DNA of 64,000 nt from Owenia fusiformis (taxonomy: Eukaryota > Annelida > Polychaeta > Sabellida > Oweniidae). How positions within the stretch are numbered: position 1 is the stretch's first letter; the number at the start of each line of letters is the position of its first letter. Position numbers and translations under genes: made by a program. A model generated the notes under the pieces. That model saw nothing but the letters and a program-made list of their open reading frames with translations. It ran no database searches and was not told where the DNA came from. The stretch spans positions 22,394,184-22,458,183 of the forward strand of contig CAIIXF020000012.1 in the NCBI GenBank assembly GCA_903813345.2, given 5' to 3'. Shown piece after piece: positions 4,326-63,632 of this stretch.

Positions 4326-4615
4326 TTATGTCACCAAAAAAGTGGTGACATATTGTGGCAATTAAGTTGTCCAGAAGTTGTAAGAAGTTCAAATCTGACT
4401 TTAGATTTGACATTTGACCCTCAATGATCTTCTCAAGGTCAAAAAGGTGTTTTTCCTTTTTCAAAATCGTCTACAAGTTATCAGAAGTTCAAATGTGACT
4501 TTAGATTTGAGATTTGACCTTTAATGACCTTCTCAAGGTCAAAAGAGGTCAAAAGATATTTTTCAACTTGCTTCAAATTGCCCAATTTTTTCAAAATTAT
4601 CTACAAGTTCCGGCT
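4326..4615 (-). mobile_element. Fragment of a hairpin-ended tandem-core element (same family as 22696-24428)
   Basis: Read on the minus strand, this is about two core units of the ~140-bp repeat that forms the array at 22.7-24.2 kb (AAGGTCA-rich, with the CAATTTGAAGCAAGTTG-type segment). It ends in the same terminal hairpin, here GTCACCAC with its complement at 4328-4351. The GC-rich tract before the hairpin is reduced, and the 5' end is missing. Confidence 0.7.
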
Positions 4616-12700: not shown

Positions 12701-15700
12701 TGCAGATGTAGTGATTGTATCTTACTCACATTTTCACATAATTATAGCTGTCATTTGACATGTAATATTGAGTTTTCAATATTTTGATACAATTGTTTAT
12801 TATTTTGCGATCATTAAAGCTTTAATCGGGGATAAATATTTTGAATAAGTACACGTACATTACGTATTACAAGTCAAAAACCTTATTTACTTACATCATA
12901 ATTTACTAGGAACTCAGATGCTAGAAGAAGCAGTAGATAAAACTCGCATCAAATAAGCTAGATGTAATTATTGAAAGGGTTATTGGTATTAAAAATCTCA
13001 ATATTTTATTTCAACAAATGCCTTGATCTCAGGTATTACTTTCCCATGGATTTAAAAATCATCCCAGCACTAATTATAAGTAACACCATTGAACACAAGC
13101 CGTCTGATTGCATTACTTGCTAAAATAACATCCTTAGAAGTGAACAATACAAACATCTGATAATAATCTAGCTAAGCCCCCCCCCCCGTGGTATCCATGC
13201 CCGCCTTGTTATATTCTTAAAAAAATGTTGAACTACCTTTTGTATTCCTTCAGAGATAATCGGTTAATTTCTGAATTTAACAGAAATTTAATTGTACAAT
13301 GTAGCACGGGGACTATACAATCATTACATACATGTAAACTTACCTTGCAAAATAATTTTATGCGGATTTTAGAACCACCGGCTGTAGAAATTAATCCATA
13401 TAATAACTATAACAAACAGATTAATATTAGTGAGAACTTAACTCATTTGCAAGAATTAGATAATAAGGGATTAAAGTTTTGTATATTGCTCTGGCATGTC
13501 AAAAGGTATTTTTTGTAAGTTTGCTCTACCATGCACACGACTTATTAATTGATCTGTCAAATGAAACAGTTGCAATAAAGTGTCCGTTTCTTTATCTTTA
13601 TTATCAAATTATCAACTGAGCCTACCGAATCTTTCAAATTTCGTGAATATATTTGGAGGGGTGCTCACGTACTTTCAAAAAAGTTCATATTAAACGCAAT
13701 TGATATTTCATGCAAAGACCATGTAGAATAAAGATTTTAGTGTCAAGGTTATCTCATTTGATTTCACAAAATGGCTAACCTTATAATCACTATTTGAACC
13801 AGGGGCAGAGTCAGCAATTGTTCAGGGGGTGAGATTTCTTGGGTTTGCATCAATGCGAACAAAGCGAGGCCCGGAACGGCGTTTACCCCTGGAATTTTTG
13901 GATGTCAATGTCAATGTTTTTCTCATATTTTGCAAAATTGCTTTTTCTTTTTGAGAGGGTGGGGAATGCAAGCGCACATGCCCCCCCCCCCCACCTTGGC
14001 TACGCCCATGCGAACCTACACCCAGCCGTAAACAGGTATGGGAATTATGTTATAATGATCATGACATTGATAATGAGACGGAATGTAGCCTGTATAACTG
14101 TTGATTCCCGGGTTTTGTCTCTTCCTTCTCATATTATCAAAAAATGATACTTTGATTCACAAAACTGCACCGAAACATAGAAAAGTACACGAAGGCAACT
14201 GCATTTACAATCTATAGTTCTGAAAAAGCAGGATTAAAAAAATCCAGTTTCAAACTGAAGTTAAAAAAGCCGGCTTTTTGATACCCAGTTTGTAAAATTC
14301 AAATAAGAATACTATCTTTATTTTCTATTTAAACTTAAATCAATTTATTATGAACTAACTATCCAGGCAAACTATGACCAAGCATCGGGAATAGAAAACT
14401 CATGTAAATGAGTTATATAAGACAATGAAATCAAAACTGATTGAAACATAAGCACTATGAAATCTTCTTTCGATTCCATTACCTGTTATAATTTTTTTTA
14501 AATACCGACTTTACCGGGAGGAATTTAACATGGGCTTTAATTCAAAGGCAAGAATGTGTTTTGAAAACTTATTAAGCGGATTAAAAGATGTTGGACGTTG
14601 CTCCAGTGATTTATATTTTATGACTCTGAATAGATGTGTGGATTATAATTGAAATCGAAAACATGACCAAAAGAGTCTAGACTTCCATTTGCTTTGATCA
14701 TGAGGAATTGGAAACAATCAAAGCGGCGATTTGAAAAAGTAAAAAATTGAATTCCCATGCATAATCCAAGATTTAATACAAACGGTGTTAACAGGTTGTC
14801 AATGTTAAATAATACCTTCTCAGGAAGAATTAGGTTGCATAGACTCTGAAAGTAGAGATAACAAGTTCAGCGGTGTAGCCAGCTTTCCGTCGGGGGGGGG
14901 GGGGCGATACCCATACAAAACACGTGTTTGCACAAGCTATTTTTATTAGCAACTTTTGATAACTACAAGGAAGATCTCTCTTTTCTAGCGCGACTGTAAA
15001 GGTGTCCAAAACCATAATTATAGTAAAAATAGATCATTTCAAAATCCATCTAGTTGCTTATTATACACTGGTAAAGTCATATTCATTAAGAACTACGGAC
15101 GGTACTTACATTCTTTTGTTGTGTTGTTTTATCATGCTTAAAAGAAAAATACGCACAAATAGTCTGTTTTTTATTTGTATGCTCAGTTATAAAATGAGCA
15201 GTGTAACTTAGAAATAGCTTAATATAGTCAGAAAGAAGCAATTATAATGTGTGACTATATTGCACACTTACAAAGTATTGCCTTTGCATATATATGAGTA
15301 TTCTTAACTTCACATATAATCAGTGCTTATTTGCGCTGTTCTACAAATAAAGAGGAGCAATACCTGAATATACAGAGTGTTCCATATATGCAGCGAGTAT
15401 TGTCTCTGTAATGTCTCTGTTTATATGTGCTGAGTATTTTTGCTGATTACTGCTGATTACAAGAGATTCTTACAAATAGACACTTCTTATAACCAAGCAA
15501 TATTCTCTATTTTATATAGTGGTTACTCAAGGGGCGAGGAGGAAAATTCTCAATAAATGGTGTATAGTTGGTTTGGCAGCATATTCAGGTAGGGGAGAGT
15601 CTTGGATGAAAGTTCCACCTAGGTGATAGCTTCGCAGAGTGGTAGGAAGTTCTTTTTTTTGAGGAGTTAGACCCCCACCCCCCCAAAACACCCCACCCTG

Positions 15701-18700
15701 GGGAAAAAAATTGTTCACACTATATAACCTTAGATATTCTGATGTTTGTAAGTGACATACATAGATATTACATATATGAATCATTTGTAGTATAATTGAT
15801 GCTAATTACTCCTAGAGAATTTGAATATTAGTACAAAGTGTGTACCCTAGGGGGCAAATTCGTGACTCATTTTCTTACTATTTTAATTATAACTTTTCAA
15901 TTAGACACTGTAAGAGGTTGAAAAAATTCATATGAAGTGCCCAATAGCAGGGTTAGTGACCCTAAAAGATGCAAAGCCATGGAAGAGGTAGGAGCTGAGA
16001 AAAAAATTGTTGATTTTTCGAAAAATTTGACATTTTTGACAGCTGGATTTTGTGTACGACTATAGCTGACCCCTATAGTTTCTAGATCCATCCCTCTATG
16101 ATGATATTTATGGTTTTATAGTGTGAAACTAAGATGTAAAACATAATTTAGATGGGTTTTAAGGAAGTTAAAGGTTTTAAACAAGTCCAAAATTTGAAAA
16201 ATTGTAAATTTAAGGTTTCAAATTTATGAATTCCAGGTATAGCCATGGCTGACCCCTATAGTTTCTAGATCCATCCTTCTTTGATGATATTTATTCTTTT
16301 ATAGTGTGAAGCTAAGATGTAAAACATAGTTTAGATGGGTTTTAAGGAAGTTATAGGTTTTAAACAAGTTCAAAATTCGAAGAATTGTAAATATAAGGTT
16401 TCAAATTTACGAATTCCAGGTATAGCCATGGCTGACCCCTATAGTTTCTAGATCCATCCTACTTTGATGATATTTATGCCTTTAGTGTGAAACTAAGATG
16501 TAAAACATAGTTTAGATGTGTTTTAAGGAAGTTATAGGTTTTAAACAAGTTCAAAATTCGAAGAATCAGTAAATATAAGGTTTCAAATTTACGAATTACA
16601 GGTATAGCCATGGCTGACCCCTATAGTTTCTAGATCCATCCCTCTTTGATGATAATGGTTTGCAGTATGAAACTAAAGATGTAAAACATAATTTAGATGA
16701 GATTTAAGGAAGTTAAAGATTTTAAACAAGTCCAAAATTTGAAAAATTGTAAATATAAGGTTTCAAAGGACGATTCTCGGTTTGGAGAACAGTCTCCCGG
16801 GCTAATAATTTTTTTCATGAAAAATATAGAAATACTACCCAAATTAAACTATGAATATTCAAAAGCGGACATTTAAATCTACAAGATGTAAAAATAACAA
16901 ATTGGTCTGAAGTAGGGATAACGCTCAATTAGACCGATTCGATAAAATACAAGTCTTGATTTGGGGAAAAAAGTTCATCGGTGTACTGCGCTAATAATTT
17001 TTGTGAAAAATCTAGAAATATAACCCAAATTAAATAATGACTTTTCAAAAGTAGACATTCAAATCTATATTATGTAAAAAAATCAAATTTGTCCGAAGCA
17101 GGGATAATGCTCATTTAGATTGATGAACTTCGTTCTCCAAACCGAGAATCGTCCTTTACGAATGTTAGGTATAGCCATGGATGACCTTTATAGCTTTTTC
17201 ATCCATACCTCTATGATGAAACTGAATTTTTAGAGTGTGAAACTAAGATGTAATACATACTGAAGATGAATTTTAAGGAAGTTTAAAAATTAAAACAAGT
17301 GCAATATTTGAAAAATTGAGAAATGTCAGGTCTCAAAGGAGCACGAAAAGCATCGCAACAGATTTCAAACAGTCATATGTTGGATTTTGTCTGTTTTCTG
17401 AGGATTTAAGCAGGTGCATATGTTAGGCCATTGCATTACCTATGGGAAAAGAACTCTTAGAGATGATAAAATAGTTTGGACTTTGAGACAGCGACGGTGC
17501 AAACAATCCACCCACATGTTTTCGGAAATGTTGTCCTGATTTTCAACCCCTTTCATCCCTGCTTTTTCAATTTTTCTTGCGTATGTTGCGTTTGGAGACA
17601 TAGTTAACCCATTAAAAGGATAATGAATTTCTTTTAGATGAAGCAGAAAACAATATTTTCCTGTTATTTCCCATAGGGAAAATTCATGTGATCCATTGCT
17701 TTCAGCTTAATTTTGGACACCCATATTTGACATCTTTAAAACCCCTGATGGAATGCATTATTCCTTTAAAGGGGTTAACTGTGTGCCAAAACACAACATA
17801 TTGATGCATGTGGGTGGGTTGTTTGCACCTTCCCTGTCTCAAAATAGAAATTATTTTATCATCTCTATGAGTGCTTTTCCTGGAGGAAATGCATTGTCCG
17901 AACACATGAACCTCCTCAAATCCTCAGAAATAGCCAAAATCCAACATATGACTGTCCGAAATCTGTTGCGATACTTTCAGTCCTCCTTTACGCTTTCAGG
18001 TATAGCCGCCCTTGGATGTCCCTCTTATTGAATGCATGACTTTTTAGCTTAGAAATTAGATGTTGAAAATATTGTGGTCAGGTTTGATCCATGTAACAAG
18101 TATTGTTAAAAGAAAAATCATTAGAGATGAAGACCTTACCCTAGAGTTCCTAAGGGGGTGAGAGGTTAATAACCCCCCCCCCCCCCCTAAAGTGTAACTG
18201 CTCTTAGGGATCTTGTATACAGTGTAGTAATTGATTGATTAAATGGATTATAACTAATTAATTATTATTTGATGATATGTATTATGTGATGTAGCATTTT
18301 TACTTTTTCACATCAACATGTTCGATGTAATGCTCTACATTGTCAAAATACATAAAGACATGGTTAATTAAAAGAAACATGATTTCTCTATATTTTGGTA
18401 TACCCCTACTGTAATTAAGCAATGATCATCTCCTAATACAAAATGTTATTATAAATTATCAAATTATAATCACTACACTCCCAATAAAACAACTTGTCAC
18501 CAGGCAACAGTAATTATTTGGGAAAATAAGGAATATAAGGATTATACCCCCAGGGCCTAGAAACTCCCGTTAGTGCAGTGAGATTAGGAACTCTACAGGG
18601 TCGTAAAAGGGTCTTGTCACACTAAAATCTCCATGTAGATCAAAAAAGTACATTGTAGAAAATGTTTAGATACTGACATTTTCTAGCATAGTTTAAGAAT

Positions 18701-21700
18701 TTTTTACATTTATTGAAATGATAGTCCTAAAATTAGAATATCAGTGTCATTTGATGCAAATTACTGCAGTCCCAAATGTTCTCCTGCTGAATCCTCTTCA
18801 AGAGTAGAATTTTACAGGGATTTCAGTTATCATTTTCAAAGATATTTGAGTTCTCTCCAATAGTTCCACTTACAAAAATCTTGACATTTGGCACACTTTT
18901 AGAATGCTGCTATTTGAATTTCTTTGTAATCTATGAAAATTTGTCTTATATTACTTGGCCAAAAGGCATTCATATTTTTAGGTAATGGTGTAATTTCTTC
19001 TATGGATTAAAGTTCAATAGGGGAAGCATCCATTCTTCGCATTCTTTCAGAATCCTTTACCTATGGAGGCGTCTAGGAGTGTAATATGAAATCTATTCTT
19101 TGGGCTCCTTCACTAGATTTGATGGAGTAGTCAAATAAACCTTTCCAAAACTCCAAATTTCAACATATAAATTAATCTTAATTTTCCTTTTGTCATAGCC
19201 ATTGTATTGATCACAAAAGTTTTATCAATTTGTGGTATGGGTTCATCGATCTCCATTTCAAACCCCTTTTTAAGTTCTGATTTTACAGGATAAGATAGAT
19301 GATCATTGTCAAACGAAATGTTTGTATCAATATAAGATCATAGTTTACTCCCACATAGCTAGGCAAGGTGTGTCCAATTCCAGCCAATTCAATACTTCAT
19401 ATAACTGCATTCCAATTTACTACTCTCATAAACCCAAGGTCAATTTTAGATTCTAGAGAAACTTATATGAAACCAATAAGCTGATTAATTTCATTGATTA
19501 AAAATCTATAAATAGCATCTTAGGGAATAGCATGCCAAGACAAGTGCTTGTATTTGAATTTATGTGGATTACTCATCTGGTAGACACCTTTATTAAATGT
19601 TATAGTGTTGTTGATTTTCAAGTTGTACAAGCATGGTGTCATGGGTACTTTCTTTTCCTGACATAGTATTAACTTTGTGGTAAAAATTATCAAAGGCACC
19701 TAGTACAGTAGTTCTAGTTCATCATCTTGTATAAATGCTATATCAACAGTGAAACCTGTATATCCCAACATCTGACTATTGTGAACACCTACCAATCATC
19801 CCAACACCTGACTAATCTGAACACCCACCAATCTGAACACTTTTCCCAGTCCATTTTTCCTCCCATTGACTCCTATGTTTAAAAAATTGAAATCTGAACA
19901 CCTCTTAATTCGAACAGTGAACACTCATATTTGAAAGATTAACCTGTCTAACTTGAACCCTTTTTACCAAACATCACATATTTCTCACAAAATTGCTCAA
20001 ATATTGTCAGTTTAACACCGAATTGTTATGATATCAAAACGTTTGAATTGGATTTTGGAATGCTATTAAGCTTTTTATGTGGTCAGTATAAATATTATTA
20101 ATATTTATTAATATTTTTCATTGAGAATGCATTCATATTTCTTCAAAATTCAGAATATTGCAGATGTAAAAACCTCAAAATTCAAATACTCCTTATTAGA
20201 ATGCTTTTAGCTGGTCCAAATAGCATTCAGATAAGGGAGATTTTACTGTAGTTCATGACTTTTCACTCCATCTATATGCAGCAGACTAACTGCTGCAACA
20301 GGTATTGTTCTACACCTGGTCTCTAAGCTATATCATAGTTGATACTAATATGCTCATAACCTTTGATTATCAGGGCTCACTCAAGGCTGAACCTGAATAA
20401 TGTGAATTTGAGACATGATATTTCTCAACTTTCCAAATTTTGCACTTGTTTAAAACCTTGAACTTCTTAAAACTCATCTTAGCTATCTTTTACATTTTAG
20501 TTAAACACTCTAAAACTATATATTTCATCACTGAGGTATAGACGTAAAAACCATAAGGGTCATCTTTGGCTATACCTGAAATTCGTAAATTTGAAACCTT
20601 ATATTTACAATTTTTCAAATTTTGGACTTCTTAAAAACCTTAAACTTCCTTAAAACCCTTCTAAATTGTGTTTTACATATTAGTTCTACACAACAAAACA
20701 ACAAATATCATCATAAAGGGATGGATCTTGAAACTATGGGGGTCAGCTATGGCTATACCTGGAATTCGTAAATTTGAAACCTTATATTTACAATTCTTCG
20801 AATTTTGAACTTGTTTAAAACCTATAACTTCCTTAAAACCCATCTAAACTATGTTTTATATCTTAGTTTCACACTATAAAAGCATAAATATCATCAAAGA
20901 AGGATGGATCTAGAAACTATAGGGGTCAGCCATGGCTATACCTGGAATTCGTAAATTTGAAACCCTATATTTACAATTTTTCAAATTTTGGACTTGTTTT
21001 AAACCTTTAACTTCCTTAAAACCCATCTAAATTATGTTTTACATCTTAGTTCCACACTATAAAACCATAAATATCATCATAGAGGGATGGATCTAGAAAC
21101 TATAGGGATCAGCTATAGTCGTACACAAAATCCAGCTGTCAAAAATGTCAAATTTTTCGAAAAATCAACAATTTTTTTCTCAGCTCCTACCTCTTCCATG
21201 GCTTTGCTTCTTTCAGGGTCACTAACCCTGCTATTGGGCACTTCATATAAATTTTTACAACCTCTTACAGTGTCTAATTGAAAAGTTAGAAACAAAATAG
21301 TAAGAAAATGAGTCACGGATTTGCCCCCTAGGGTACACACTTTGTACTAATATTCAAATTCTCTAGGAGTAATTAGCATCAATTATACTACAAATGATTC
21401 ATATATATAATATCTATGTATGTCACTTACAAACATCAGAATATCTAAGGCTATTTAGTGTGAACAATATTTTTCCCTGGGGTGGGGTGTTTTTGGGGGG
21501 TGGGGGTCTAACTCCTCAAAAAAAAGAACTTCCTACCACTCTGCGAAGCTATCACCTAGGTGGAACTTTCATCAAAGACTCTCCCCTACCTGAAAATGCT
21601 GCCAAACCAACTATACACCATTTATTGAGAATTTTCCTCCTCGCCCCTTGATGTTACTTTTATCAGAATAGATGGTTATTTTGCTGACCCCAAGCAGAAG

Positions 21701-24700
21701 GATTTTAACAGGAAAATACCTCACGTGATATGATCAGAACAACTTATGTAATCGCCATCTGGTGTTGAAAATGATAAAGGTTTTTGACTAAATTTGACAG
21801 ATCAGGTAATATTCTTGGATTTGTGAATCTAAGCTGCGATGTGGTTCGTTTCAGGTTTATTGGTGTCAAACAAAACTTTTAGAAATGAGCGATCCATTTG
21901 ATATTCTTGGACAATGAAAAGTTAAGTTTTAATTGGGCTATAGATACTGAAAGGTACGCATTGTCAGCGTTAAACTTTTATTAAACAATCATATTTAGAC
22001 ATCAAATACAAAATTTGGACCTTCGCTCCATTAAATATGACATTTTATTAGTCCAAACTCACTTGAAATAACTCTTGTCTGGGGTTAGACCTAGTTTGAC
22101 TCCATTTATTCCTGTGCTCTTTCTAAGAAAACTTGGAATCTTCTGCTCCATCTGCAGCGCCAGCAACAAAACCTAATAAAAAATAACATCAGCCATTTTT
22201 AAAAACATGTACTTTCTAACTGTATGATAGATGTATACACAGGGTGAAAGGGACTCGACTGGACAATGAAAATAACTTATATTAATATGGATTGAATTAA
22301 TTACTACAGACTATATGGTACATACTACTATAACTACTATAAAGTGATTGTGATTTCAACCAACTAATGCCAAATACTTAGTAATGAACTAAAATATGGT
22401 TGTTCTACTTAATATGTGGCTTTCTCAATGATATCCCTTGAAAAAGTTGAAGCCAAAAGAAATTACTCTTTTAAACATTTGAATATTTTCACTGACCTGT
22501 TTCTTCCACAGCAGAATGTGATTTTCATATTCTTTATCATATGTATGTGTTACCATAGCAACCAGTGATGTCACAAACAGAATGGCAACTAGTATGAGGT
22601 AGCTCACATATACCACAATGGCGAGTGAGGGGGTGGGGCAAAGGTTGAACACCTAGATAAAAATATGTAATATAGCATAGCAGAACATTGACAACAAGGC
22701 ATTAACATGACAAAATGTCACCACCTAGCTGCTCACAATATTATGAGTTCAAACTTAGGTCAGATTTGAATTTCTGAGAACTTGTAAAGTCAAATTTGAA
22801 CTTCTGAAAAGATGTAGATGATTTTGAAAAAAAAATTGGTCAATTTGAAGCAAGTTGAAAACAGACCTTTTTGACCTTTTTTGACCTTGAGAAGGTCATT
22901 GAAGGTCAAATGTCAAATCTAAAGTCAAATCTAAAGTCATATTTGAATTTCTGAGAACATGTAGATGATTTTGAAAAAAAATTTAGTCAATTTGAAGCAA
23001 GATGAAAAAATACCTTTTTGACTTTTTTGACATTGAGAAGGTCATTGAAGGTCAAATGTCAAATCTTAAGTCAGATTTGAATTTCTGAGAACATGTAGAT
23101 GATTTTGAAAAAAAAATTTAGTCAATTTGAAGCAAGTTGAAAAAAGACCTTTTTGACCTTTTTTGACTTTGAGAAGGTCATTGAAGGTCAAATGTCAAAT
23201 CTTAAGTCAAATCTAAAGTCAGATTTGAATTTCTGAGAACACGTAGATGATTTTGAAATTTTTTTTAGTCAATTTGAAGCAAGTTGAAAACAGACCTTTT
23301 TGACCTTTTTTGACCTTGAGAAGGTCATTAAAGGTCAAATGTCAAATCTAAAGTCAGATTTGAATTTCTGAGAACATGTAGATGATTTTGAAAAAAAAAT
23401 TAGTCAATTTGAAGCAAGTTGAAAAAAGACCTTTTTGACCTTTTTTGACCTTGAGAAGGTCATTGAAGGTCAAATGTCAAATCTAAAGTCATATTTGAAT
23501 TTCTGAGAACATGTAGATGATTTTGAAAAAAATTTAGTCAATTTGAAGCAAGATGAAAAAATTACCTTTTTGACCTTTTTTGACATTGAGAAGGTCATTG
23601 AAGGTCAAATGTCAAATCTAAAGTCAGATTTGAATTTCTGAGAACATGTAGATGATTTTGAAAAAAAAATTTAGTCAATTTGAAGCAAGTTGAAAAAAGA
23701 CCTTTTTGACCTTTTTTGACCTTGAGAAGGTCATTGAAGGTCAAATGTCAAATCTTAAGTCAAATCTTAAGTCAGATTTGAATTTCTGAGAACACGTAGA
23801 TGATTTTGAAAAAAAATTTAGTCAATTTGAAGCAAGTTGAAAACAGACCTTTTTGACCTTTTTTGACCTTGAGAAGGTCATTGAAGGTCAAATGTCAAAT
23901 CTTAAGTCAAATCTTAAGTCAGATTTGAATTTCTGAGAACACGTAGATGATTTTGAAAAAAAACTTAGTCAATTTGAAGCAAGTTGAAAACAGACCTTTT
24001 TGACCTTTTTTGACCTTGAGAAGGTCAAATGTCAAATCTAAAGTCAGATTTGAAGGTCAAATGTCAAATCTAAAGTCAGATTTGAATTTCTGAGAACATG
24101 TAGATGATTTTGAAAAAAAATTTAGTCAATGTAAAGCAAGTTGAAAAAAGACCTTTTTGACCTTGAGAAGGTCATTGAAGGTCAAATGTCAAATCTAAAG
24201 TCAGATTTGAACTTCTGAGAACATGTAGATGATTTAGAAAAAAATTGAAGTCAGTCTAAACAGTATTTGTTAAGTTATAGGAAGTTGTAAGAAATTGTTA
24301 CAGACGCCGGACGCCAACCGCCGGACGCCAACCGCCGGACACCAACCACCAACTGCCGGACGCCAACCGCCGTCGCAAAAAAAACGGAGACCATAACAAT
24401 ATGTCACCACTTTTGGTGGTGACATAATAAAACAGAAGGCATTAACATGCAAAATGTCATCACCTGCCATTTGTTACAGATGCTGAATGCCTGCAACCAC
24501 TGTCACAAAAATTGAGACCATAAGAATATGTCACCACTTTTGGTGGTGACATATTAAAGCAGATTCCATCATTAAACAACATTCTCATACATGTACATTA
24601 AAATAGCTTCTCTTTCTTATTGCTAATCATGTCATCTATTAGTCATCTGTTAATGCTACATTTTTGCACAATAGTCGGTAATAAATTGTATACAATAATG

Positions 24701-27700
24701 ATATGTCGAAGGAGTTCAGATCTGGTATGGCCCTATTTTCATGACAATGAATAAATGAAATTAAAAGTGCCTATTAAAATGAACACCAGTTTATGTGATT
24801 TGTTAGTGTAAATGCAGGCCCGTAGCCAGGATTTGCCAAGGGACGCCTTGGTTCAGTTTCAGTTTTCAGGTTCAGTTTTCAAATATTTCCAGGGGGGGTT
24901 CACATTTGACAATTTTGGCCCAAATATGGCTAAAATCACTTAAGAAGTGCTCAAAATGGTGAAAAACTGAATGATTTTGAAAGAATTTTTGGTCAGGGGG
25001 GGGGGGGGGGTTCGCCCGAACCCTGCAAACCTCCCCCTGAAAAGTATTGTGAATGACATACACTGAGAGGCAGCTCCTGTAGGCCTACAATGGCTTTGAT
25101 CAGAGTCAACATGGAGAGCCCAAAATCTCCAAATAATTCAGTGTTGCCTAGCAACTGGACATCTGAGTACATCACCACAAAAGCTGGAACAGAATGTATT
25201 CACGCAATTTTTACAAGTTCCATATACTGTACATGTATGTGGCCATTTAGATTGGAATTATTTTACATCTCAATAGCAAGGAGACACATGTTTTAGGTTT
25301 AGGTTTTTAGTCAATGAGTACTAGCCTGTCAAGCCCTTAAAGGAGAAAGTAGGTTGAGAAGAATGAAAATTCTCCAATTATTACAAATATACTTCATAGA
25401 AACTTAAAAAAATATGAAATTCAAGTCTGTTTTAACAATAAAAAGATAAAACACTACATACCTGCTGAATAACCAATGAGAATGCAGAAATATGCTGATA
25501 TAAACCTAAGCATATCTCTACATAGTATTGTCTCTAGCATGACAACATATGGCCCCAGTTTAGCAAACAATCTGCTGTAAAACAACATATATGCCCAGCC
25601 TGTAAGCATCAGTAGAGCAAGGGCGATTTCCTCTCTTGGGTGGCAGAAGACACGTAATATGGCAGTGGTCAGGAAAATAATTATGTGGACCCATCTGAAA
25701 TGAAAACAGATATTTTAAGCTACTTTTTGTATACATGTACATTGTATGTAACAGATCTTAAAAGTGGGAAATACATATAGACAACTAGAGGTGTCAAAAC
25801 ATATAGACAACTAGAGGTATTTAATTATTGTTAACAAACTACATGTAGCTTCAGGTACCAGGTATATTTAAGAAAAACATTCATTTTGGAACAAAAAGTA
25901 CCTTTTACATTGATTAAGTGTTGAAATAAAATGTCAAAATTGTACATTACAGTGTTATAGTTCAAAGATTGTGTAAATGCTACCTTTGTAAGAAAATGTA
26001 CATTTTACCGGAAAAAGTTACATTATAATATGGAAAAGAAAATAGCTACCTTAAAATGTTGAAAGCTCCACATCCTTTACCAAGGAAATATAATCTCCAG
26101 CCAAGCCAGTTGAGGTCCAGGCACTGGAAAAGAGAAACACATTAGACAGAAGGAAACAATCAATTATCATAAAAACATCAGTTGGGCTTGCAACAGACAC
26201 AGAGTGTATGCTTTAATGATATGTCTCCTGGAAACTCTTCCTCAAAATTTTGCTTGATTATATCAATTTCAAATATCTTTTTTTCTTTTTTATTGCTTTT
26301 TTATTCATAAAAACATTTGAAATCATTTACATTGACACATGCAATGCTTTTTTGAAAACTTGTGCAGAAAAAAAGAAATAAAGGAAGAGATCAAAAATAA
26401 AGGAAGAGATCAAAAAGATCTATACTATTACAAGATCAACCAACCTGATTAACATAAACATGTAGACAATGGACGTGTAACTAGACACCTTTATGTAAAT
26501 TAATGTTTACCTAATGCAAATAAATGCCTCATGGTGTTCAACTTATGGATGGAGGTGTCCAATGAGACACAGGACTTTAAAGTATTCAACTTATAGATGG
26601 AGGTGTCCAATGAGACACAGGACTTTAACGTATTCAACTTATGGATGGAGGGGTCACAGGACTGACTTTAAGTGTTCAACTTATGTATGGAGCTGTCCAA
26701 TGAGTCACAGAACCTTAAAGTGTTCAACTTATGGACAGAGGTGTCCAATAAGTCACAGAACTTTAAAGTGTTCAACTTATGGACGGAGGTGTCCAATGAG
26801 TCACAGAACTTTAAAGTGTTCAACTTATGGACGGAGGTGTCCAATGAGTCACAGAACTTTAAAGTGTTCAACTTATGGACGGAGGTGTCCAATGAGTCAC
26901 AGAACTTTAAAGTGTTCAACTTATGGACAGAGGTGTCCAATGAGTCACAGAACTTTAAAGTGTTCAACTTATGGACGGAGGTGTCCAATCAGTCACAGAA
27001 CTTTAAAGTGTTCAACTTATGGACGGAGGTGTCCAATGAGTCACAGAACTTTAAAGTGTTCAACTTATGGACGGAGGTGTCCAATGAGCCACAGGACTTT
27101 AAAGTGTTCAACTTATGGATGGGGTGTCCAATGAGACACAGGACTTTAAAGTGTTCAACTTATGGATGGGGTGTCCAATGAGTCACAGGACTTTAAAATG
27201 TTTAACTTATGGATGGAGCTGTCCAATGAGTCACAGGACTTTAAAGTGTTCAACTTATGGATGGGGTGTCCAATGAGACACGGGACTTTAAAGTGTTCAA
27301 CTTATGGATGGGGTGTCCAATGAGACACAGGACTTTAAAGTGTTCAACTTATGGATGGGGTGTCCAATGAGTCGGAGAACTTTAAAATGTTCAACTTAAG
27401 TATGGAGCTGTCCAATGAGTCACATGACTTTAAAGTGTTCAACTTATGGATGGAGGTTTCCAATGAGTCACAGGACTTTACAGTATTCAACTTATGGATG
27501 GAGGTGTCCAATGAGTCACAGGACTTTAAAGTATTCAACTTATGTATGGAGGTGTCCAATGAGTCACAGAACCTTTAAGTGTTCAACTTATGTATGGAGC
27601 TGTCCAATGGGTCACAGGACTTTAAAGTATTCAAATTATGGATGGAGGTGTCCAATGAGACACAAGACTTTAAAGTGTTCAACTTATAGATGGAGGTGTC

Positions 27701-30700
27701 CAATGAGTCACAGGACTTTAAAGTATTCAACTTATGGATGGAGGTGTCCAATGAGACACAGGACTTTAAAGTGTTCAACTTATGTATGGAGGTGTCCAAT
27801 GAGACACAGGACTTTAAAGTGTTCAACTTATGGATGGGGTGTCCAATGAGACACAGAACTTTAAAGTATTCAACTTATGGATGGAGGTGTCCAATGAGAC
27901 ACAGGACTTTGAAGTATTCAACTTATGGATGGAGGTGTCTAATGAGTCACAGGACTTTAAAGTATTCAACTTATGGATGGAGGTGTCCAATGAGACACAG
28001 GACTTTAAAGTGTTCAACTTATAGATGGAGGTGTCCAATGAGTCACAGGACTTTAAAGTATTCAACTTATGGATGGAGGTGTCCAATGAGACACAAGACT
28101 TTAAAGTGTTCAACTTATGGATGGAGGTGTCCAATGAGTCACAGGACTTTAAAGTATTCAACTTATGGATGGAGGTGTCCAATGAGACTCAGGACTTTAA
28201 AGTATTCAACTTATGGATGGAGGTGTCCAATGAGTCACAGGACTTTAAAGTATTCAACTTATGGATGGAGGTGTCCAATGAGTAACAGGACTTTAAAGTA
28301 TTCAACTTATGGATGGAGGTGTCCAATGAAACTCAGGACTTTAAAGTGTTCAACTTATAGATGGGGTGTCCAATGAGTCACAGGACTTTAAAGTATTCAA
28401 CTTATGGACGGAGGTGCCCAATGAGTCACAGGACTTTAAAGTATTCAACTTATAGATGGAGGTGTCCGATGAAACACAGGACTTTAAAGTGTTCAACTTA
28501 TGGATGGAGGTGCCCAATTAGTCACAGGATTTTAAAGTATTCAACTTATGGATGGAGGTTTCCAATGAGTCACAGGACTTTAAAGTATTCAACTTATGGA
28601 TGGAAGTGTCCATTGGCTCACAGGACTTTAAAGTATTCAACTTATGGATGGAGGTGTCCAATGAGTCAAAGGACTTTAAAGTATTCAACTTATGGATGGA
28701 AGTGCCCAATGAGTCACAGGACTTTAAAGTGTTCAAGTTATAGAGGTGGCCAATGAGTCACAGGACTTTAAAGTATTCAACTTATGGATGGAGGTGGCCA
28801 ATGGGTCACAGGACTGACTTTAAAGTGTTCAAGTTATAGAGGTGGCCAATGGGTCACAGGACTTTAAAGTATTCAACTTATGGATGGAGGTGGCCAATGG
28901 GTCACAGGACTTTAAAGTATTCAACTTATGGATGGAGGTGTCCGATGAGACACAGGACTTTAAAGTATTCAACTTATGGATGGAGGTGTCCAATGAGACA
29001 CAGGACTTTAAAGTATTCAACTTATGGATGGAGATGGCCAATGAGTCACAGGACTTTAAAGTATTCAACTTATGGATGGAGGTGGCCAATGGGTCACAGG
29101 ACTGAATTTAAAGTGTTCAAGTTATAGAGGTGGCCAATGGGTCACAGGACTTTAAAGTATTCAACTTATGGATGGAGGTGGCCAATGGGTCACAGGACTT
29201 TAAAGTATTCAACTTATGGACGGAGGTGTCCAATGAGACACAGGACTTTAAAGTATTCAACTTATGGATGGAGGTGCCCAATGAGTCACAGGACTTTAAA
29301 GTATTCAACTTATGGATGGAGGTGGCCAATGAGTCACAGGACTGACTTTAAAGTGTTCAAGTTATAGAGGTGGCCAATGAGTCACAGGACTTTAAAGTAT
29401 TCAACTTATGGATGGAGGTGTCCAATGAGTAACAGGACTTTAAAGTATTCAACTTATGGATGGAGGTGTCCAATGAGACTCAGGACTTTAAAGTGTTCAA
29501 CTTATAGATGGGGTGTCCAATGAGTCACAGGACTTTAAAGTATTCAACTTATGGATGGAGGTGCCCAATGAGTCACAGGACTTTAAAGTATTCAACTTAT
29601 AGATGGAGGTGTCCGATGAAACACAGGACTTTAAAGTGTTCAACTTATGGATGGAGGTGCCCAATTAGTCACAGGATTTTAAAGTATTCAACTTATGGAT
29701 GGAGGTTTCCAATGAGTCACAGGACTTTAAAGTATTCAACTTATGGATGGAAGTGTCCATTGGCTCACAGGACTTTAAAGTATTCAACTTATGGATGGAG
29801 GTGTCCAATGAGTCAAAGGACTTTAATGTATTCAACTTATGGATGGAAGTGCCCAATGAGTCACAGGACTTTAAAGTGTTCAAGTTATAGAGGTGGCCAA
29901 TGAGTCACAGGACTTTAAAGTATTCAACTTATGGATGGAGGTGGCCAATGGGTCACAGGACTGACTTTAAAGTGTTCAAGTTATAGAGGTGGCCAATGGG
30001 TCACAGGACTTTAAAGTATTCAACTTATGGATGGAGGTGGCCAATGGGTCACAGGACTTTAAAGTATTCAACTTATGGATGGAGGTGTCCGATGAGACAC
30101 AGGACTTTAAAGTATTCAACTTATGGATGGAGGTGTCCAATGAGACACAGGACTTTAAAGTATTCAACTTATGGATGGAGATGGCCAATGAGTCACAGGA
30201 CTTTAAAGTATTCAACTTATGGATGGAGGTGGCCAATGGGTCACAGGACTGAATTTAAAGTGTTCAAGTTATAGAGGTGGCCAATGGGTCACAGGACTTT
30301 AAAGTATTCAACTTATGGATGGAGGTGGCCAATGGGTCACAGGACTTTAAAGTATTCAACTTATGGACGGAGGTGTCCAATGAGACACAGGACTTTAAAG
30401 TATTCAACTTATGGATGGAGGTGCCCAATGAGTCACAGGACTTTAAAGTATTCAACTTATGGATGGAGGTGGCCAATGAGTCACAGGACTGACTTTAAAG
30501 TGTTCAAGTTATAGAGGTGGCCAATGAGTCACAGGACTTTAAAGTATTCAACTTATGGATGGAGGTGCCCAATGAGACACAGGACTTTAAAGTATTCAAC
30601 TTATGGATGGAGGTGTCCACGAGACAGTTTTACAGTTTATTTATTCTTACCTCCCCAATGGTAATAACAGCCCACCAAGCTAGAACTATCACTTCAGCTA

Positions 30701-33700
30701 CCAATCTGGCATTATTAGAGCTTTCTCTTGTATCATATGCATCCTGAAATAAACAATCAATCTGAGTTATTGCTATATTATGAAAATGCTACATGTTACA
30801 GATGCAAAAATTGAAGGCTTTTACAATCACCATTAAGTATCATAGTGACATGTTTTGCACAACAGGGTTTTTCTACAACAAAGCCTATACAAGGATTCTA
30901 AACAAGAATAATTCTGTGCTGAACTTTTTCAGAACTTAGATGAACTGGCATCTTCAACTGGGAAACAGATAGGGCCTACATGTATATAGAAAATCTTATA
31001 CTTACAAACAGAGTAATTCTTCTGTCAGGGTTTGGTATGAAACGTGTGATATTAAACAACCCTGAAGCATTAGATATGGTTACTGTCTCTATGGTTGGTT
31101 TGGGAAGGGGACGGTAATATGCGATTAATGTCAGTAATGTCATGTAGATTACATAAAAGATGGCGCCACTGTAGACCCATGGCCTCATGCTCAGATACTT
31201 ATGTTGAAGTATCTCGCCAAGTGGTTGTATTGAGAGAAATTTGGATGCCTGAAAGACAAGAGTTATTAAATTAAATACATTTTATATTTTTATCCATGGA
31301 TTATTATCTAAATTATCATTCAAATGTTTGAATAAAAGCAGGATAAGGGTATTTTTTCTGAAACCCAAAACATTCCGCATCTCTTTTCTCGTTACATTTC
31401 ATTTTGGTGGATTCAATATTGGCGAAGGTGGATTCAATGTTGTCGAAGTTGAAATTGTTTACATTACATAGTAACACTTTACAACTATAGCTTACATTTT
31501 TATGTGCACATTTGACAGAAAGTTCCAAGAGACTGCCATCCTGACATTTTCCATCATGGAATGTATCAATGTCTTCAAGGTCGTATATCACCGTAGAAAC
31601 TGACCCATAAGTCCAAAGTACTTGTTGTCGGCGAAACAGGATGTGCTCAACCAACTGAAAACAATTTTAGAAACAAATGAAGCTACATGTATTTTGATTC
31701 AGAGTTTTAAAAAGAGGGCAGCACCTATATACCACTGATATTGGCATATCAATCTGTCAGTGAGTAAAAACAAAGCCAACAAAACAATTTGCCTTATCCT
31801 TCTGTGTGTGTATAACTTATACTTATTGTTGATGTGCTTGGCACAGCTTTGTACTAATTACAATTATTGTCTCATTCAAAAACAGTCACAACTGTCAATT
31901 CAAACAAGGCACAGACGTGAACAATATCGTACCTAAAACACAGCAGTGTGACAGTGAAGAATTTAGGACGGGAAATCCAAAATGGCCACCTTAAAATTAA
32001 CCCAGAATGCCCAAAAACTAATCAGTTGTTAACTTTGATATGTAGAAACATCCCTGTAAATTTCAAATGAATCCGTCAAATTGTTTGGCTGGAAACCTGT
32101 AGACAAGTCTTGAAAGTGAAGATTTTAAGACGGAAAATCCAAAATGGCCACCTTAAATTATACCCAGAATGCCAAAAAACTAATCAGTTCTTAACTTTGA
32201 TACGTAGAAACATCCCTGAAAATTTCAGATGAATCCCTCAAATGGTTTGGCTGGAAACCTGTAGACAAGTCTTGAAAGTGAAGATTTTAGGACGGAAAAT
32301 CCAAAATGGCCCCTTAAAATTTACCCAGAATGCCCAAAAACTAATCAGTTGTTAACTTTGATATGTAGAAACATCCCTGTAAATTTCAAATGAATCTGTC
32401 GAATGGTTTGGCTGGAAACCTGTAGACAAGTCTTAAAAGTGAAGATTTTAGGACGGAAAATCCAAAATGGCCACCTTAGATTTTACCCAGAATGCCAAAA
32501 AACTAATCAGTTCTTAACTTTGATACCTAGAAACATCCCTGAAAATTTCAGATGAATCCGTCAAATGGTTTGGCTGGAAACCTGTAGACAAGTCTTGAAA
32601 GTGAAGATTTTAGGACGGAAAATCCAAAATGGCCACCTTAAAATTTACCGAGAATGCCCAAAATGTAATCAGTTCTCAATTTTGATACGTAGAAACATTC
32701 CTGAAAATTTCAGATGAATCCGTCAAATGGTTTGGCTGGAAACCTGTAGACAAGTCTTGAAAGTGAAGATTTTAGGACGGAAAATCCAAAATGGCCACCT
32801 TAAAATTTACCCAGAATGCCCAAAAAGTAATCAGTTCTCAACTTTGATACGTAGAAACATTCCTGAAAATTTCAGATGAATCCGTCAAATGGTTTGGCTG
32901 GAAACCTGTAGACAAGTCTTGAAAGTGAAGATTTAAGGACGGAAAATCCAAAATGGCCACCTTAAAATTTACCCAGAATGCCCAAAAACTCATCAGTTCT
33001 TAACTTTGATGCGTAGAAACATTCCTGAAAATTTCAGATGAATCTGTCAAATGGTTTGGCTGGAAACCTGTAGACAAGCTGAAAAGTGAGACGCCGCCCG
33101 CCGGCTGCTCACCCGCCGCCCGCCCGCTGCCCGTCAAGCTGACGACAATATCGTACCTTTATTAGGTACGATAAAAAGCCATATAATTATATATTCAGCT
33201 GGAATATTTGGGATGTAAAGTGAATTATCTGTCACACTGAGAAAAGTGTTACATTCTGTTCATTGCATAAAATCAAATCTGTGCATTGTCTTTAAAATAT
33301 CTCACCTCTACATGGCCAAGATGGGTGGCATACTGGGAGGGGGTGAAGCCAAGAATATTCCTGATGCTGTTCAACTTCAGTTTATCATCAGGATCCAGTG
33401 AGATTATGATGTCATACATTTCTGAAAATAACATCTTTTTATTGTTTTGATTTTCTGAAAGCTACATTTTCTTGACTTTTTTCTGACAAATCATGTGAAA
33501 ACTGATATTTTGATTCATTGTGGTCAGCTACACCTCTGTGTAATACATGCACAAGAGAGTTTCTAGCAAATCAATACGATCTCTGTCAAGTGAATAAGAG
33601 AAAATATTCAAAAGGCCATCATTGTACTATAAGGATGGGATCAGAAGTTACTTGATATATTTTAGGAATGTGTGGAAGTAAAAGAAAAAAAATTGATTTT

Positions 33701-39700: not shown

Positions 39701-42700
39701 AAGGGGCCTTTGAACCACTTCATCTGGAATTTGTGATGCCAGAACACATTATTTCTTGAGTTTACATGTTCAGAAAGAAGGGAATGTGATTCATCCGAAA
39801 ACCTAACATTGGAAATGGACGACATTTGGAGCATATTTTGAAACAAGCATAACTCTATCAATATAAGACTATGATTATTGAAACTTTGCCAAAGGATCCC
39901 ACATTGAATGAAGTCCTCGTGTGCCAAATTTCAGAGCAATTAACCTCCATTTAAGAAAAATATTGAAGAAATGGAGGGTTGCATTTTTTTTGGGTCACCC
40001 TGTACAAAGGAAAGTTTAGTTGATTTTAAAAAAGTATCTTGTTAATGAAAAAGGTTTAACTTAATTTTTATCTATTTTGGGGGGTTTTGTTTTAAGTTTT
40101 TGCATACTTTTTGTTAAATCAACCAAAATTTCCTTTGTATAACTATAATTTTGAGAGGTCTAAGAAAATGTTGTATATGCTATTTTGTTCCAATAAGGTT
40201 CGGAAAGACATTTTATTTCATTCTCAAGAATTGGTAGAAAGGAACAAAAAACAATTGCACTAAAAACAAATTTTTTTTAACAAAAACAGTTATATATATA
40301 AATAATTTTTGCATTAAATTGTTGCCAATTAGTCAACATTACATAAAGGACCGTGTTTTTTTACAGAATGTTTTCAATAATTTTTAAGAGAAAAATATTG
40401 TTGAATTCAGTCCACCATATCGATACCTATCCTTTTGAGAAAAATTAGGTGAGTACTTGGGTTACAAAAAGAACCTGAAGACCAACATAGTTCAAGGATC
40501 AACCATAATATTTTATATATTTAAATTGAGTTTTGAGGGCGGTATAGATCTTTTACAACCAGTTTTACAAAAATTTATTTTCTCCCATATTAAAACCTAA
40601 ACTATCACAATGTTTCAAGAGTTCCCCTAATGGTTCACCTCTCAGGCTTCTCCATGTATATGTAGTCATAAATTATAATCATTTGGAAATAACTGAGGAT
40701 GCTTGTAATAACATGAAACAACTCCAAATATGTTCAGCTTGTTAAAGCTTTATTTCTCCAAATATGGTTAGCCCTGGATTTAAGGATTAACATTTGATCG
40801 GATTTAATGTCTTGAATTCCCTCCTATTGTAAATAGCACTGTTGAGTTATATGGAACTATACAAAGAATTTCAGTTTAAAAATTAATCATAACTGAAGTG
40901 GCAAAACAAGAGAACCTCAACAACCTGTCTGCTGTATCTCAATGCCAGATGAAAGATTTTGGAAAAAGCAAAGTTAAACACCCAGAATTCTGTCATTGAG
41001 ATGGCATAAAATATGAAATCTGAGATCATAATATTTTGCTTTTCCAAAGCTAAATGATGAAAAGATACAATACACATTGGCAATTCAAAAATATATGAAA
41101 GTGGCCAATGAACAAGGTATTAACGACGCAATTCATTTACAACATGTGATATTGATTTTCGTGTATTAATTCTGTATTTCCTATTGTTAAGAGTGGTTAA
41201 TTAGCCAAAGGTGGGCTGGGTAAAATTGTAATGATGATGAAGACACACAAGTTCTGATAAAGACACACTCTGATGAATCAGAATGTGATTTAGATGTTTA
41301 GAATATACTGTACTCACCAAAATAAAGTTTACTCTCATATGCCATATCGACCAACGATGGCTCCTTCTCCAAAAGCAATATGGCTGCCTCATAGTGGTCA
41401 CGTAAAGCAGCGACATGAAGAAGACTCTCCCCAGCAGCTCCTGTTGAAAATTACAGAACAGTGAAACATGTGAAGTAGAAAACCTCTAGAAGTGAAACAC
41501 CTCTAGAAGTGAAATACTTTCCAGAGTCCAAGACCAACTGATGACATATATAGTTAAATGATCCAAAAATGGAATACTTTTTAGAGGTGCCGAAGGTGTT
41601 CCCCTGAGGCAGGTTTTACTATGTGTTTATAAATTGATAATATAATATAGTCCCCCTATGTACTATACATCTACAGTAGCTTAGAGGTGCATATGAGAGA
41701 GAGTCACAAGCGATTGAAGCAAAACTATATTCAAGCTTCAATTGTACCATCATATGAGAGAGAGTCACAAGCGATTGGAGCAAAACTATATTCAAGCTAC
41801 AATTGTACCATCATATGAGAGAGAGTCACAAGCCATTGAAGCAAAACTATATTCAGAGCTAATATTGTACCATCATATGAGAGAGAGTCACAAGCGATTG
41901 AAGCAAAACTATATTCAGAGCTACAATTGTACCATCATATGAGAGAGAGTCACAAGCGTTTGGAGCAAAACTATATTCAAGCTACAATTGTACCATCATA
42001 TGAGAGAGAGTCACAAGCAATTGGAGCAAAACTATATTCAAGCTACAATTGTACCATCATATGAGAGAGAGTCACGAGCGATTGGAGCAAAACTATATTC
42101 AAGCTACAATTGTACCATCATATGAGAGAGAGTCACAAGCGATTGGAGCAAAACTATATTCAGAGCTACAATTGTACCATCATATGAGAGAGAGTCACAA
42201 GCGATTGGAGCAAAACTATATTCAAGCTACAATTGTACCATCATATGAGAGAGAGTCACAAGCGATTGGAGCAAAACTATATTCAAGCTACAATTGTACC
42301 ATCATATGAGAGAGAGTCACAAGTGATTGAAGCAAAACTATATTCAAGCTACAATTGTACCATCATATGAGAGAGAGAGAGTCACAAGTGATTGAAGCAA
42401 AACTATATTCAAGCTACAATTGTACCATCATATGAGAGAGAGTCACAAGCGATTGGAGCAAAACTATATTCAAGCTACAATTGTACCATCATATGAGAGA
42501 GAGTCACAAGTGATTGAAGCAAAACTATATTCAAGCTACAATTGTACCATCATATGAGAGAGAGTCACAAGCGATTGAAGCAAAACTGTATTCAGAGCTA
42601 CAATTGTACCATCATATGAGAGAGAGTCACAAGCGATTGGAGCAAAACTATATTCAAGCTACAATTGTACCATCATATGAGAGAGAGTCACCAGCGATTG

Positions 42701-45700
42701 GAGCAAAACTATATTCAAGCTACAATTGTACCATCATATGAGAGAGAGTCACAAGCGATTGGAGCAAAACTATATTCAAGCTACAATTGTACCATCATAT
42801 GAGAGAGAGTCACAAGCGATTGGAGCAAAACTATATTCAAGTTACAATTGTACCATCATATGAGAGAGAGTCACAAGCGATTGAAGCAAAACTATATTCA
42901 AGTTACAATTGTACCATCATATGAGAGAGAGTCACCAGCGATTGGAGCGAAACTATATTCAAGCTACAATTGTACCATCATATGACAGAGAGAGTCACAA
43001 GTGATTAAAGCTAAACTATATTCAAGCTACAATTGTACCATCATATGAGAGAGAGTCACCAGCGATTGGAGCGAAACTATATTCAAGCTACAATTGTACC
43101 ATCATATGAGAGAGAGAGTCACAAGTGATTGAAGCAAAACTATATTCAAGCTACAATTGTACCATCATATGAGAGAGAGTCACAAGCGATTGGAGCAAAA
43201 CTATATTCAAGCTACAATTGTACCATCATATGAGAGAGAGAGAGAGTCACAAGTGATTGAAGCAAAACTATATTCAAGCTACAATTGTACCATCATATGA
43301 GAGAGAGATTGAAGCAAAACTATATTCAAGCTACAATTGTACCATCATATGAGAGAGAGTCACAAGCGATTGGAGCGAAACTATATTCAAGCTACAATTG
43401 TACCATCATATGAGAGAGAGAGTCACAAGTGATTGAAGCAAAACTATATTCAAGCTACAATTGTGCCATCATATGAGAGAGAGTCACAAGTGATTGAAGC
43501 AAAACTATATTCAGAGCTACAATTGTACCATCAAACAGTGATTTAATACATGTCATTTTTTCTTTATTATACAATCAAATAAAAATTAAAATGCACATAG
43601 TTATAAATAAGTATTTTAAAACAAGATGATGACAAATTAGCACTTTTTCAAAGTACAATAAAAATGCATTTTCAAAAATCAATTGAATGGAAGAAACTCA
43701 AGAACATCTAAATCAGAGTTTCGTGGAATTCCAACTTATCAAATATACCAAAGAAATCACAGAATCAAATATTGAAAACTAGATTAAACAAGAGAAGCAG
43801 TCTGAGTTTTATCTTTAAACACACACAAAGGCATTTCATCTTCCAGTGAAAGTAGAATGTCAAAGTAAAGTGAAAAGAATTATGCAACAGAACAAGTAAA
43901 ACCTGAACCAGAAAATATCTCAAGAAAATATTGACCATTCAATAGAGAGGTTATTGTGTAAATAATATAACTAAAGATCACAGAATAGGTTAGACCGATT
44001 CTGAAAGGTTATGCAGTTCAAAGTAAAATATAACAAAGAATGGTTCAAGAAATTCTAAATTCTAGAATCGTGATTAATTATACAATAATAGTTTTAGTGA
44101 ACTCCTCAACCACATACATGTACATGTATATTACAGTCCCAAAGCCTTGAAAACTGAATTAGAAGACAGATCATTATATACAAATATATACAGGCTACAA
44201 TGAAATTCAAATTACAAGTTAACAATCCTCTAAAAATATTTCTAATGATCATTTCCTCTAAAAATACTAAGTACCCTTGCACCGAGTTTTCGAGATCCTC
44301 TACCATTGCTTTGTCTTAAATGTGGCAATGGGCAAAGACAGAGATTTGTCAATGATCAAAGTTACGTCATTCAAATAAAAGCCATAATTATACAAATTAG
44401 GCATTCGGATAAGTGAATATTCCTAAAAGTCTCTTTATTGCATCTCCCTCCTATCCTTAATAAGACTAAAACCAGAAACTAATTAAAAGGATCAATTGGA
44501 AACCACATGCAGTTGGCATTCTTGGTCTTATTTACAAATCAATTTGCATCTCATACACCCAATATTTCCTGTTTTACAAAGTCTCTGTATTATGCCCCTC
44601 CCACATTTGCACTCCTCAATCAGGTTAGGAAGTCTTCCAAAACTAAACAAAATGGAATGTGTTGTAGTTACTATGATTAGCAACTCATTTTAGTTTCCAA
44701 CACAAATACAAATACTCACCTCTCTGTGTCAGGTCTATCTTCCCCTTGGCTGTGAGTCTTTCAATGGCTTTGACATCATTGCGTTGAACGCTTCGAAACA
44801 AATCCCAAAGATTCTCTGGAAAACTGGAAATAGGGATATCTATCAATGTAACTTCCATTTTCTGTATGTGATGATTTCAAAACAAAGATGCATGTATGAT
44901 ATATTCTTGTGCATGTATGTGTATGTTTTTCCTCAAGTTATATTTTTATTTCAGTTTTATACAATTCAGCCTTCATCTTCGCAGAGTTAAAATAACTTAG
45001 TTTAAAGTAGCTTTTAATGGACATATGGTGTGTTTCAACTCTTTAACTAACTCAGTAAGGATATAAAAAATGTTTATATTTAATTTTGTTCACGACAGCA
45101 ATACATTTATGTACTTGAAAAAGTATAAAAAGTTAAATGTTAATAAAATTGTTATTTATTCATTTGAAAGTAACCTTTAGGAAAGAGCTTTTCTTTAAAA
45201 TGCTATCATGAATGCCTTCGTCATGAAATCATAAGGTCATAGAAAAAGGTTAATTGGTACTACGTATTATATGTATGATTTATTGACTATATACAATTTG
45301 GAAGTGAATTCAGGATTTTTTCAATAAATTACCTTGTATAATTTTTTGTATATTTATACATTTTCATAGTTACGGTTTTAAAAATCTAGCATCAGTTTTA
45401 AAAAAACAGAAATGTCTCAATCTTGTGGTTAAGAAGTTAAAATATTAGGTTTGAATGGTAAATCAGTACACATAATGATCATATTAGGAATAAATGTACA
45501 TGTATGACATTTTCTCAAGAAAAAGAATTTTAACAAAATAAACAAGCAATAAAATCAAGAATTTCAAGGACACAGAAACATATGTTTCAAAAGGTACAAT
45601 GACTTGAATGACCTTGATATATTTTCTTACTTGGTGGTCTATTGTATTTATATAGCCAAATTTGGATATTAATCACTGAGAGAGACTAACATGACTAAGT

Positions 45701-63039: not shown

Positions 63040-63511
63040 CTTTGGAACAAAGCTACAACCTTCATGAGAAATCTAAAACTAAGCACTGAAAACAAAGCAT
63101 TTTACTGGAAAATTGAATGAATGTTTAGTTCCCAGTAAAACTGCGAGTGGAAGTGGAACATGGGAGCACTGACTACAGTTTTAGTCAGTGAACAGTTTCA
63201 AATTCAGTGAGCGACTGTTATGTTTCACTGAGTGGCATATACTTTTAGTTAACTCATATCAGTCTCATTGAGTTTAAACTGAACAAAATAGTTCAGACTG
63301 CAAAGAGTTAACTAAAATTCGGTTCAATTGTTAAATTCTTCATTTCATTGTTGTTCTTTATGTGAACAAGCACATGGATGGCTGGCTGCAGTCAACAACA
63401 ATTACTTGCACATTATTTTAAAAACAAACCATGTTTATGTAAATGATCACAATTATACTGCATTGTTAAAGTTCACAACACACAACCATAAACCTCTACA
63501 TACATTATATT

Positions 63512-63632
63512 AAGGCATTAATATGCAAAATCTCACCACCTATCATTTGTTACAGATGCCAACTGCCGAACACAAAACACCATCCACAAAAAGTTGGAGA
63601 ACAATATGTTACCATTTCTGGTGATGACATAA
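63512..63632 (+). mobile_element. Family A hairpin-ended element, compact copy
   Basis: Begins AAGGCATTAATATGCAAAAT, with CTCACCACC as the 5' motif, then CATTTGTTACAGATGCCAAC and the decayed terminal hairpin GTTACCATTTCTGGTGATGAC. Same layout as 24436-24556. Confidence 0.68.

Follow-up and report, generated by a model that had tools for sequence, protein, structure and literature searches.

Two related HINE families in the annelid Owenia fusiformis and a probable autonomous Helentron source for one of them

Helentrons and HINEs described so far

A Helentron family is defined by matched, inverted subTIRs at the 5' and 3' ends (PMC4067079), and the HINEs, its non-autonomous derivatives, are known to insert into oligo-T without target duplication (PMC7492417). 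Descriptions of published HINEs emphasise a 3' palindrome of 5-10 bp. In one published element, Helentron-Da-40, the RepHel ORF lies in minus orientation (PMC4067079), and Helitron arrays have been described that possess multiple 5' ends and a single 3' end (PMC12628747). The study of the oyster elements, according to which the pearl elements are reclassified as non-autonomous Helentrons, left open the relation of the HINE core to the autonomous element (PMC7492417). Here we compare with these systems two repeat families, A and B, from Owenia fusiformis.

Two families with one layout

The window, the whole stretch of DNA that was analysed, comprises 64,000 nucleotides of contig CAIIXF020000012.1. 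The features are given below in window positions, with the strand on which the element probably reads 5' to 3'.

22694-24430, minus: family A HINE, from the alignment of copies; 88% identical to the 5' part of an autonomous copy over about 1.68 kb
24401-24425, minus: A 5' end hairpin of 10 bp, subTIR ATGTCACCAC(C), 5-nt loop and IR GTGGTGACAT; preceded by TTATT on the minus strand and present, in three autonomous copies, 5' of the RepHel ORF
24305-24372, minus: A GGC/GTCC-rich tract, the HINE left-flank microsatellite; equally placed in the autonomous copy
22785-24244, minus: A tandem core, satellite-like unit of about 135-147 bp; a matching array lies upstream of the ORF in the autonomous element
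22715-22725, minus: A 3' subTIR, GGTGGTGACAT on the minus strand, from sequence reading, the hairpin-arm scan and autonomous copies
22694-22709, minus: A 3' terminus CATGTTAATGCCTTGT, with a short weak palindrome, at the exact edge of the 99.76% identity between two autonomous copies
24434-24555, minus: mini A element without the tandem core, adjoining A, from reading of the window
63511-63631, minus: second mini A element, from sequence comparison in the window
4326-4610, plus: old, 3'-truncated A copy with the hairpin and part of the core, from sequence comparison in the window
31904-33177, minus: family B HINE, from sequence reading and alignment of copies
33149-33173, minus: B 5' end hairpin TATCGTACCT-AATAA-AGGTACGATA, from alignment of copies and DNA fold
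33091-33134, minus: B GGC-rich tract, from sequence reading
31949-33089, minus: B tandem core, 162-bp unit repeated 7.1 times, from tandem-repeat analysis
31925-31934, minus: B 3' subTIR, AGGTACGATA on the minus strand, from sequence reading and the hairpin-arm scan
31904-31919, minus: B 3' terminus CACGTCTGTGCCTTGT, from sequence reading and alignment of copies

On the window strand, family A reads ACAAGGCATTAACATGACAAA-ATGTCACCACC, tandem core, GCC tract, ACAAT, ATGTCACCAC-TTTTG-GTGGTGACAT and AATAA, and family B reads ACAAGGCACAGACGTGAACAA-TATCGTACCT, 162-bp core, GCC tract, ACAA, TATCGTACCT-TTATT-AGGTACGATA and AAAA, the end motif (11 nt in A, 10 nt in B) recurring as an arm of the 10-bp hairpin at the opposite end. 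This is the layout of the original prediction, which had equated the end motif with the hairpin arm, and it holds for both elements. When folded as DNA, the hairpins reach -11 kcal/mol in A (z -5.3 against shuffles) and -9 kcal/mol in B (z -6.0). A de novo scan of the window for hairpins with an arm recurring upstream behind AAGG recovers A, B, matches within the A tandem core and, at 12783/13005, a single weak match attributable to chance, and only A and B recur when hairpin arms are scanned over about 330 kb of DNA. Aligned copies with differing flanks delimit the mobile unit as (A)CAAGGC up to the hairpin plus 4-5 A, placing the end motif within the unit. In the direction favored here, the order is T-tract, 5' subTIR with its complementary IR (the hairpin), GGC-rich microsatellite, satellite-like tandem core, 3' subTIR, short palindrome, CCTTG and T-tract.

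Both families are well represented genome-wide: the degenerate A/B pattern for the AAGGC end has 5,790 exact matches, with none for the reversed-pattern control, and perfect hairpins number 1,574 for A and 103 for B, and B ends 351, all with control counts of 0. All of the 47 distinct copies possessing both ends are unmixed (27 A-A, 20 B-B), the motif and the hairpin arm being matched within each family, as had been anticipated, and a genome-wide search for exact chimaeric A/B ends returned none. At one locus, L049, a mini family A element is interrupted (at about 1293-2718) by a family B element, which dates the two relative to each other.

Comparison of filled sites with paralogous empty sites places the insertions in A-tracts, that is, oligo-T on the true strand, with no target duplication; the clear empty sites are all from B, the A case being poor and A being judged by the composition of its flanks.

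The window contains further repeats. An inverted repeat at 15527-21651, with 963-nt arms that are 96% complementary, lie 4.2 kb apart and each contain 183-bp tandem repeats, is probably a separate long-TIR transposon, and the arrays at 16065-16767 and 20405-21116, considered as a third HINE, are parts of it. Large tandem arrays are also found at 26537-30619, 41690-43533 and 49158-50655, with units of 48, 61/245 and 30 bp, respectively, and with some ORFs of about 200 aa.

An autonomous partner for family A

A search of the genome for Helitron_like_N points to 58 places. Among these are autonomous Helentrons with the ends of A, of about 11.6-12.1 kb (C11:29198331-29210188, C10:10905386-10916995 and C6:5172599-5184714), whose ORFs of 2424-2576 aa encode Helitron_like_N along with a putative C-terminal endonuclease. 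The hairpin and the family A tandem core are found upstream of the ORF in all three of these copies, each read in pieces, and the AAGGC end, as CCTTGT, is found downstream of the ORF in four (C11, C10, C6 and C47). A sharp boundary is presented by the C11 (L064) and C10 (L065) copies, whose identity downstream of the ORF is 99.76% and ends precisely after ...GGTGGTGACATTTTGTCATGTTAATGCCTTGT (...TTTTAGGTGGTGACATTTTGTCATGTTAATGCCTTGT), the sequences beyond being unrelated; this boundary is the reverse complement of the family A AAGGC end. On the 5' side of the C11 copy, outward from the ORF, follow the A tandem core, the GGC tract and two tandem A hairpins that follow a T-tract.

The protein has the features of a Helentron Rep. 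Its motif 2, FYRVEFQNRGSPHIH, fits the Helentron signature FxR..VExQxRGSPHxH (PMC4067079), the tyrosine pair is present as YISSY, and a PIF1 helicase is recognized (PF05970, E 5.8e-25). Pfam gives no endonuclease call for this ORF itself. The C-terminus contains the motifs LNAQS..SETR..GDININ..DHIY..YYSYH and is 32% identical to that of the C5 copy, which in turn matches Exo_endo_phos with 21.2 bits, below the Pfam cut-off; the motifs and this identity suggest an AP-like endonuclease.

The subTIRs ATGTCACCACC and GGTGGTGACAT are common to the A HINE and to the autonomous Helentron, with identity of at least 11 bp. Because the window element shares 88% identity with the C11 copy in its 5' part, and because another HINE copy (L023) agrees with the final 60 bp of the autonomous element at 59 positions, the A elements are, judging from their sequences, derivatives of an endogenous autonomous Helentron that lack its coding part. 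The window copy matches 45 of these 60 positions, which assigns it to a different subfamily of the same family. As the autonomous element also carries the satellite-like core, this core must have been inherited by the HINE, and probably expanded, rather than captured. With 99.76% identity between autonomous copies along 1.7 kb within the 3' part, the system is also suited to tests of activity and of end recognition.

Relation of the two families

The kinship with Helentrons and HINEs that had been suspected is thus confirmed by a Rep-PIF1-endonuclease partner possessing the ends of A, and so is the placement of A and B in one superfamily, as both contain CCTTGT, have AGGT on the inner side of the subTIR and carry ATATTGT next to the hairpin. 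By the same token, the description of their hairpins as unrelated was too strong. On this inner side, B and the autonomous A element have GTTTTAGGT in common, and from such sequence likeness we consider A and B to be related, with the look of diverged relatives.

The search for a RepHel gene with matching ends succeeded for A and detected no such gene for B. Of the 27 variant B 3' ends, searched as exact patterns, which miss diverged ends, not one is close to a match for Rep or endonuclease, and B is a related HINE whose partner went undetected. The Helentron at C1:4667175, whose protein is the closest to that of A, with an endonuclease 39% identical, was considered as a carrier of either family. 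The A end closest to it is 10 kb distant and belongs to a separate mini element, and the parts read contain neither the core nor the ends of B. Over the 1.2-1.3 kb next to the ORF, the Helentron clusters at C12:19514795 and C6:36035560 are free of A/B ends, and so is the Helentron at C5:30807401 over 1.4 kb. Helentron clusters mostly of unplaced contigs (L062, L063 and L069) have a tandem-repeat-rich region downstream of the ORFs, and other ends. A blind genome search for further families with the AAGGC/CCTTGT end found none, the candidates being unrelated repeats: the pattern AACAAGGCARNNNNYTG has 226 matches versus 17 in the control, and the two largest groups of these run past the AACAAGGC boundary and possess no matching hairpin.

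As to the proposal that both ends have changed together, each pair fitting its own Rep, it is compatible with the explanation preferred below, and the perfect pairing of ends within families, the lack of chimaeras and the resemblance of A and B to diverged relatives are all in its favor. However, two families with one ancestor each amount to a single comparison, matched subTIRs define any Helentron family, and no B protein was found for comparison, so that A and B together cannot show co-evolution with a recognition protein. The original prediction in this regard is unsupported, and we consider such co-evolution possible but doubtful. The matched ends are a standard feature of a known group and not the mark of a new kind of element.

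Proposed mechanism

The ends and the core shared with a Helentron, the domains of its ORF and the insertion into T-tracts without target duplication make it very likely that A and B are HINEs, read on the minus strand, and that A derives from the endogenous autonomous Helentron sharing both of its ends and its tandem core. Both families probably spread by Rep nicking and insertion into T-tracts. The Helentron Rep would nick at the junction of the T-tract and the 5' hairpin, the helicase would displace the strand, the CCTTG end would stop replication, and the single strand would enter an oligo-T site with no duplication of the target. The HINEs, retaining the end signals alone, would use the Helentron protein in trans, B presumably using a protein related to that of A. 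If the hairpin is indeed at the 5' end, the excised junction should consist of CCTTG joined to T-ATGTCACC.

A more elaborate scheme is also conceivable, in which the 5' subTIR has two alternative partners, the adjacent IR (giving the 10-bp hairpin) and the 3' subTIR (over 11 bp in A), allowing the single strand to switch between an initiation hairpin and end-to-end synapsis, with the terminator role of the 3' palindrome reduced, and with A and B representing two specificities that diverged with their Reps. We regard this scheme as unlikely.

Polarity of the elements

The original prediction had AAGGCA at the 5' end and the hairpin at the 3' end. The reverse is probably true, with the hairpin (subTIR and IR) as the 5' end and AAGGC as the 3' end, as indicated by the ORF orientation, the oligo-T target, the short spacing between terminus and subTIR, and the arrays. 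The ORF direction puts the hairpin 5' in each of the three copies of which both ends were read. This is insufficient by itself, since Helentron-Da-40 has its RepHel ORF in minus orientation. In both A and B the 5' subTIR lies 4-5 nt from the terminus, with an IR spacing of 5 nt, and the microsatellite adjoins the 5' hairpin, in agreement with published HINEs. Tandem hairpin pairs number 7 and tandem CCTTGT ends 0, and among the 100 hairpins listed 26 are clustered, in 11 clusters, which agrees with the Helitron arrays of multiple 5' ends and a single 3' end (PMC12628747).

It could still be argued that the strong hairpin is a 3' terminator and that the RepHel ORF lies on the opposite strand. 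Canonical Helitrons terminate in a 3' palindrome of 16-20 nt, a Helentron with a minus-strand ORF has been published (PMC4067079), and the palindrome at the CCTTG end is weak: its fold energy is -2.8 kcal/mol in A (z -1.3) and -1.6 kcal/mol in B (z -0.5), with stems of 3-5 bp and no clear advantage over shuffles, and it is here that the elements depart most from the textbook description. However, such a polarity would require an A-tract target, would put the 5' subTIR about 21 nt inside the element, versus 2-4, would place the microsatellite in the wrong module, and would imply arrays in which the 3' end is repeated many times and the 5' end is single. It seems quite improbable.

At five loci (L016, L018, L021, L013 and L067, the last at 82-178) the hairpin end is repeated 2-3 times at a spacing of 27-51 bp, usually via an internal T8 tract. 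The T8 tract resembles the insertion target, and the arrangement hints that initiation was repeated, or that the element inserted into itself, at the 5' end.

MITEs, too, often possess terminal inverted motifs, and one might take A and B for a MITE-like or foldback family, not rolling-circle, whose ends agree by coincidence or through the action of a cut-and-paste transposase, but this has a negligible chance of being correct, being already contradicted by the autonomous copies, as target duplication is absent and both the ends and the tandem core are those of a Rep-helicase element.

Comparison with known systems

The canonical Helitrons (5' TC, 3' CTRR, insertion between A and T) share with the present system the rolling-circle Rep and the PIF1 helicase and differ in the ends, the target and the endonuclease; A and B possess neither these termini nor this target. 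Closer are the mite HINE-Mo/Helentron-Mo and the Drosophila DINE-1 (PMC4067079), in which the HINE is likewise a deletion derivative of an endonuclease-encoding Helentron, with subTIRs, a TT-rich target and the Helentron Rep signature. In the mite HINEs, in contrast, the subTIRs are themselves palindromic, there is no IR, and the 3' subTIR is 38-60 bp from the end, versus about 22 in A and B (PMC4067079). The bivalve pearl elements are alike by description, a satellite-like tandem core being flanked by conserved ends. The closest match is Cg_HINE of Crassostrea gigas (PMC7492417), with an 11-12-bp 5' subTIR and nearby IR, a GTCC-like microsatellite, a satellite-like array of 140-180 bp, a 3' subTIR and an oligo-T target without target duplication. 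Unlike in the oyster, the autonomous partner is identified in O. fusiformis and carries the array, and the 3' palindrome is weaker.

Overall, A and B are of a known kind, a new member of the Helentron/HINE group in this genome, and what appeared to be a new superfamily becomes part of a documented system, with its polarity probably corrected. Of the new facts, the most useful is that the autonomous element itself has the satellite-like core, and O. fusiformis supplies an autonomous-HINE pair in which this can be seen.
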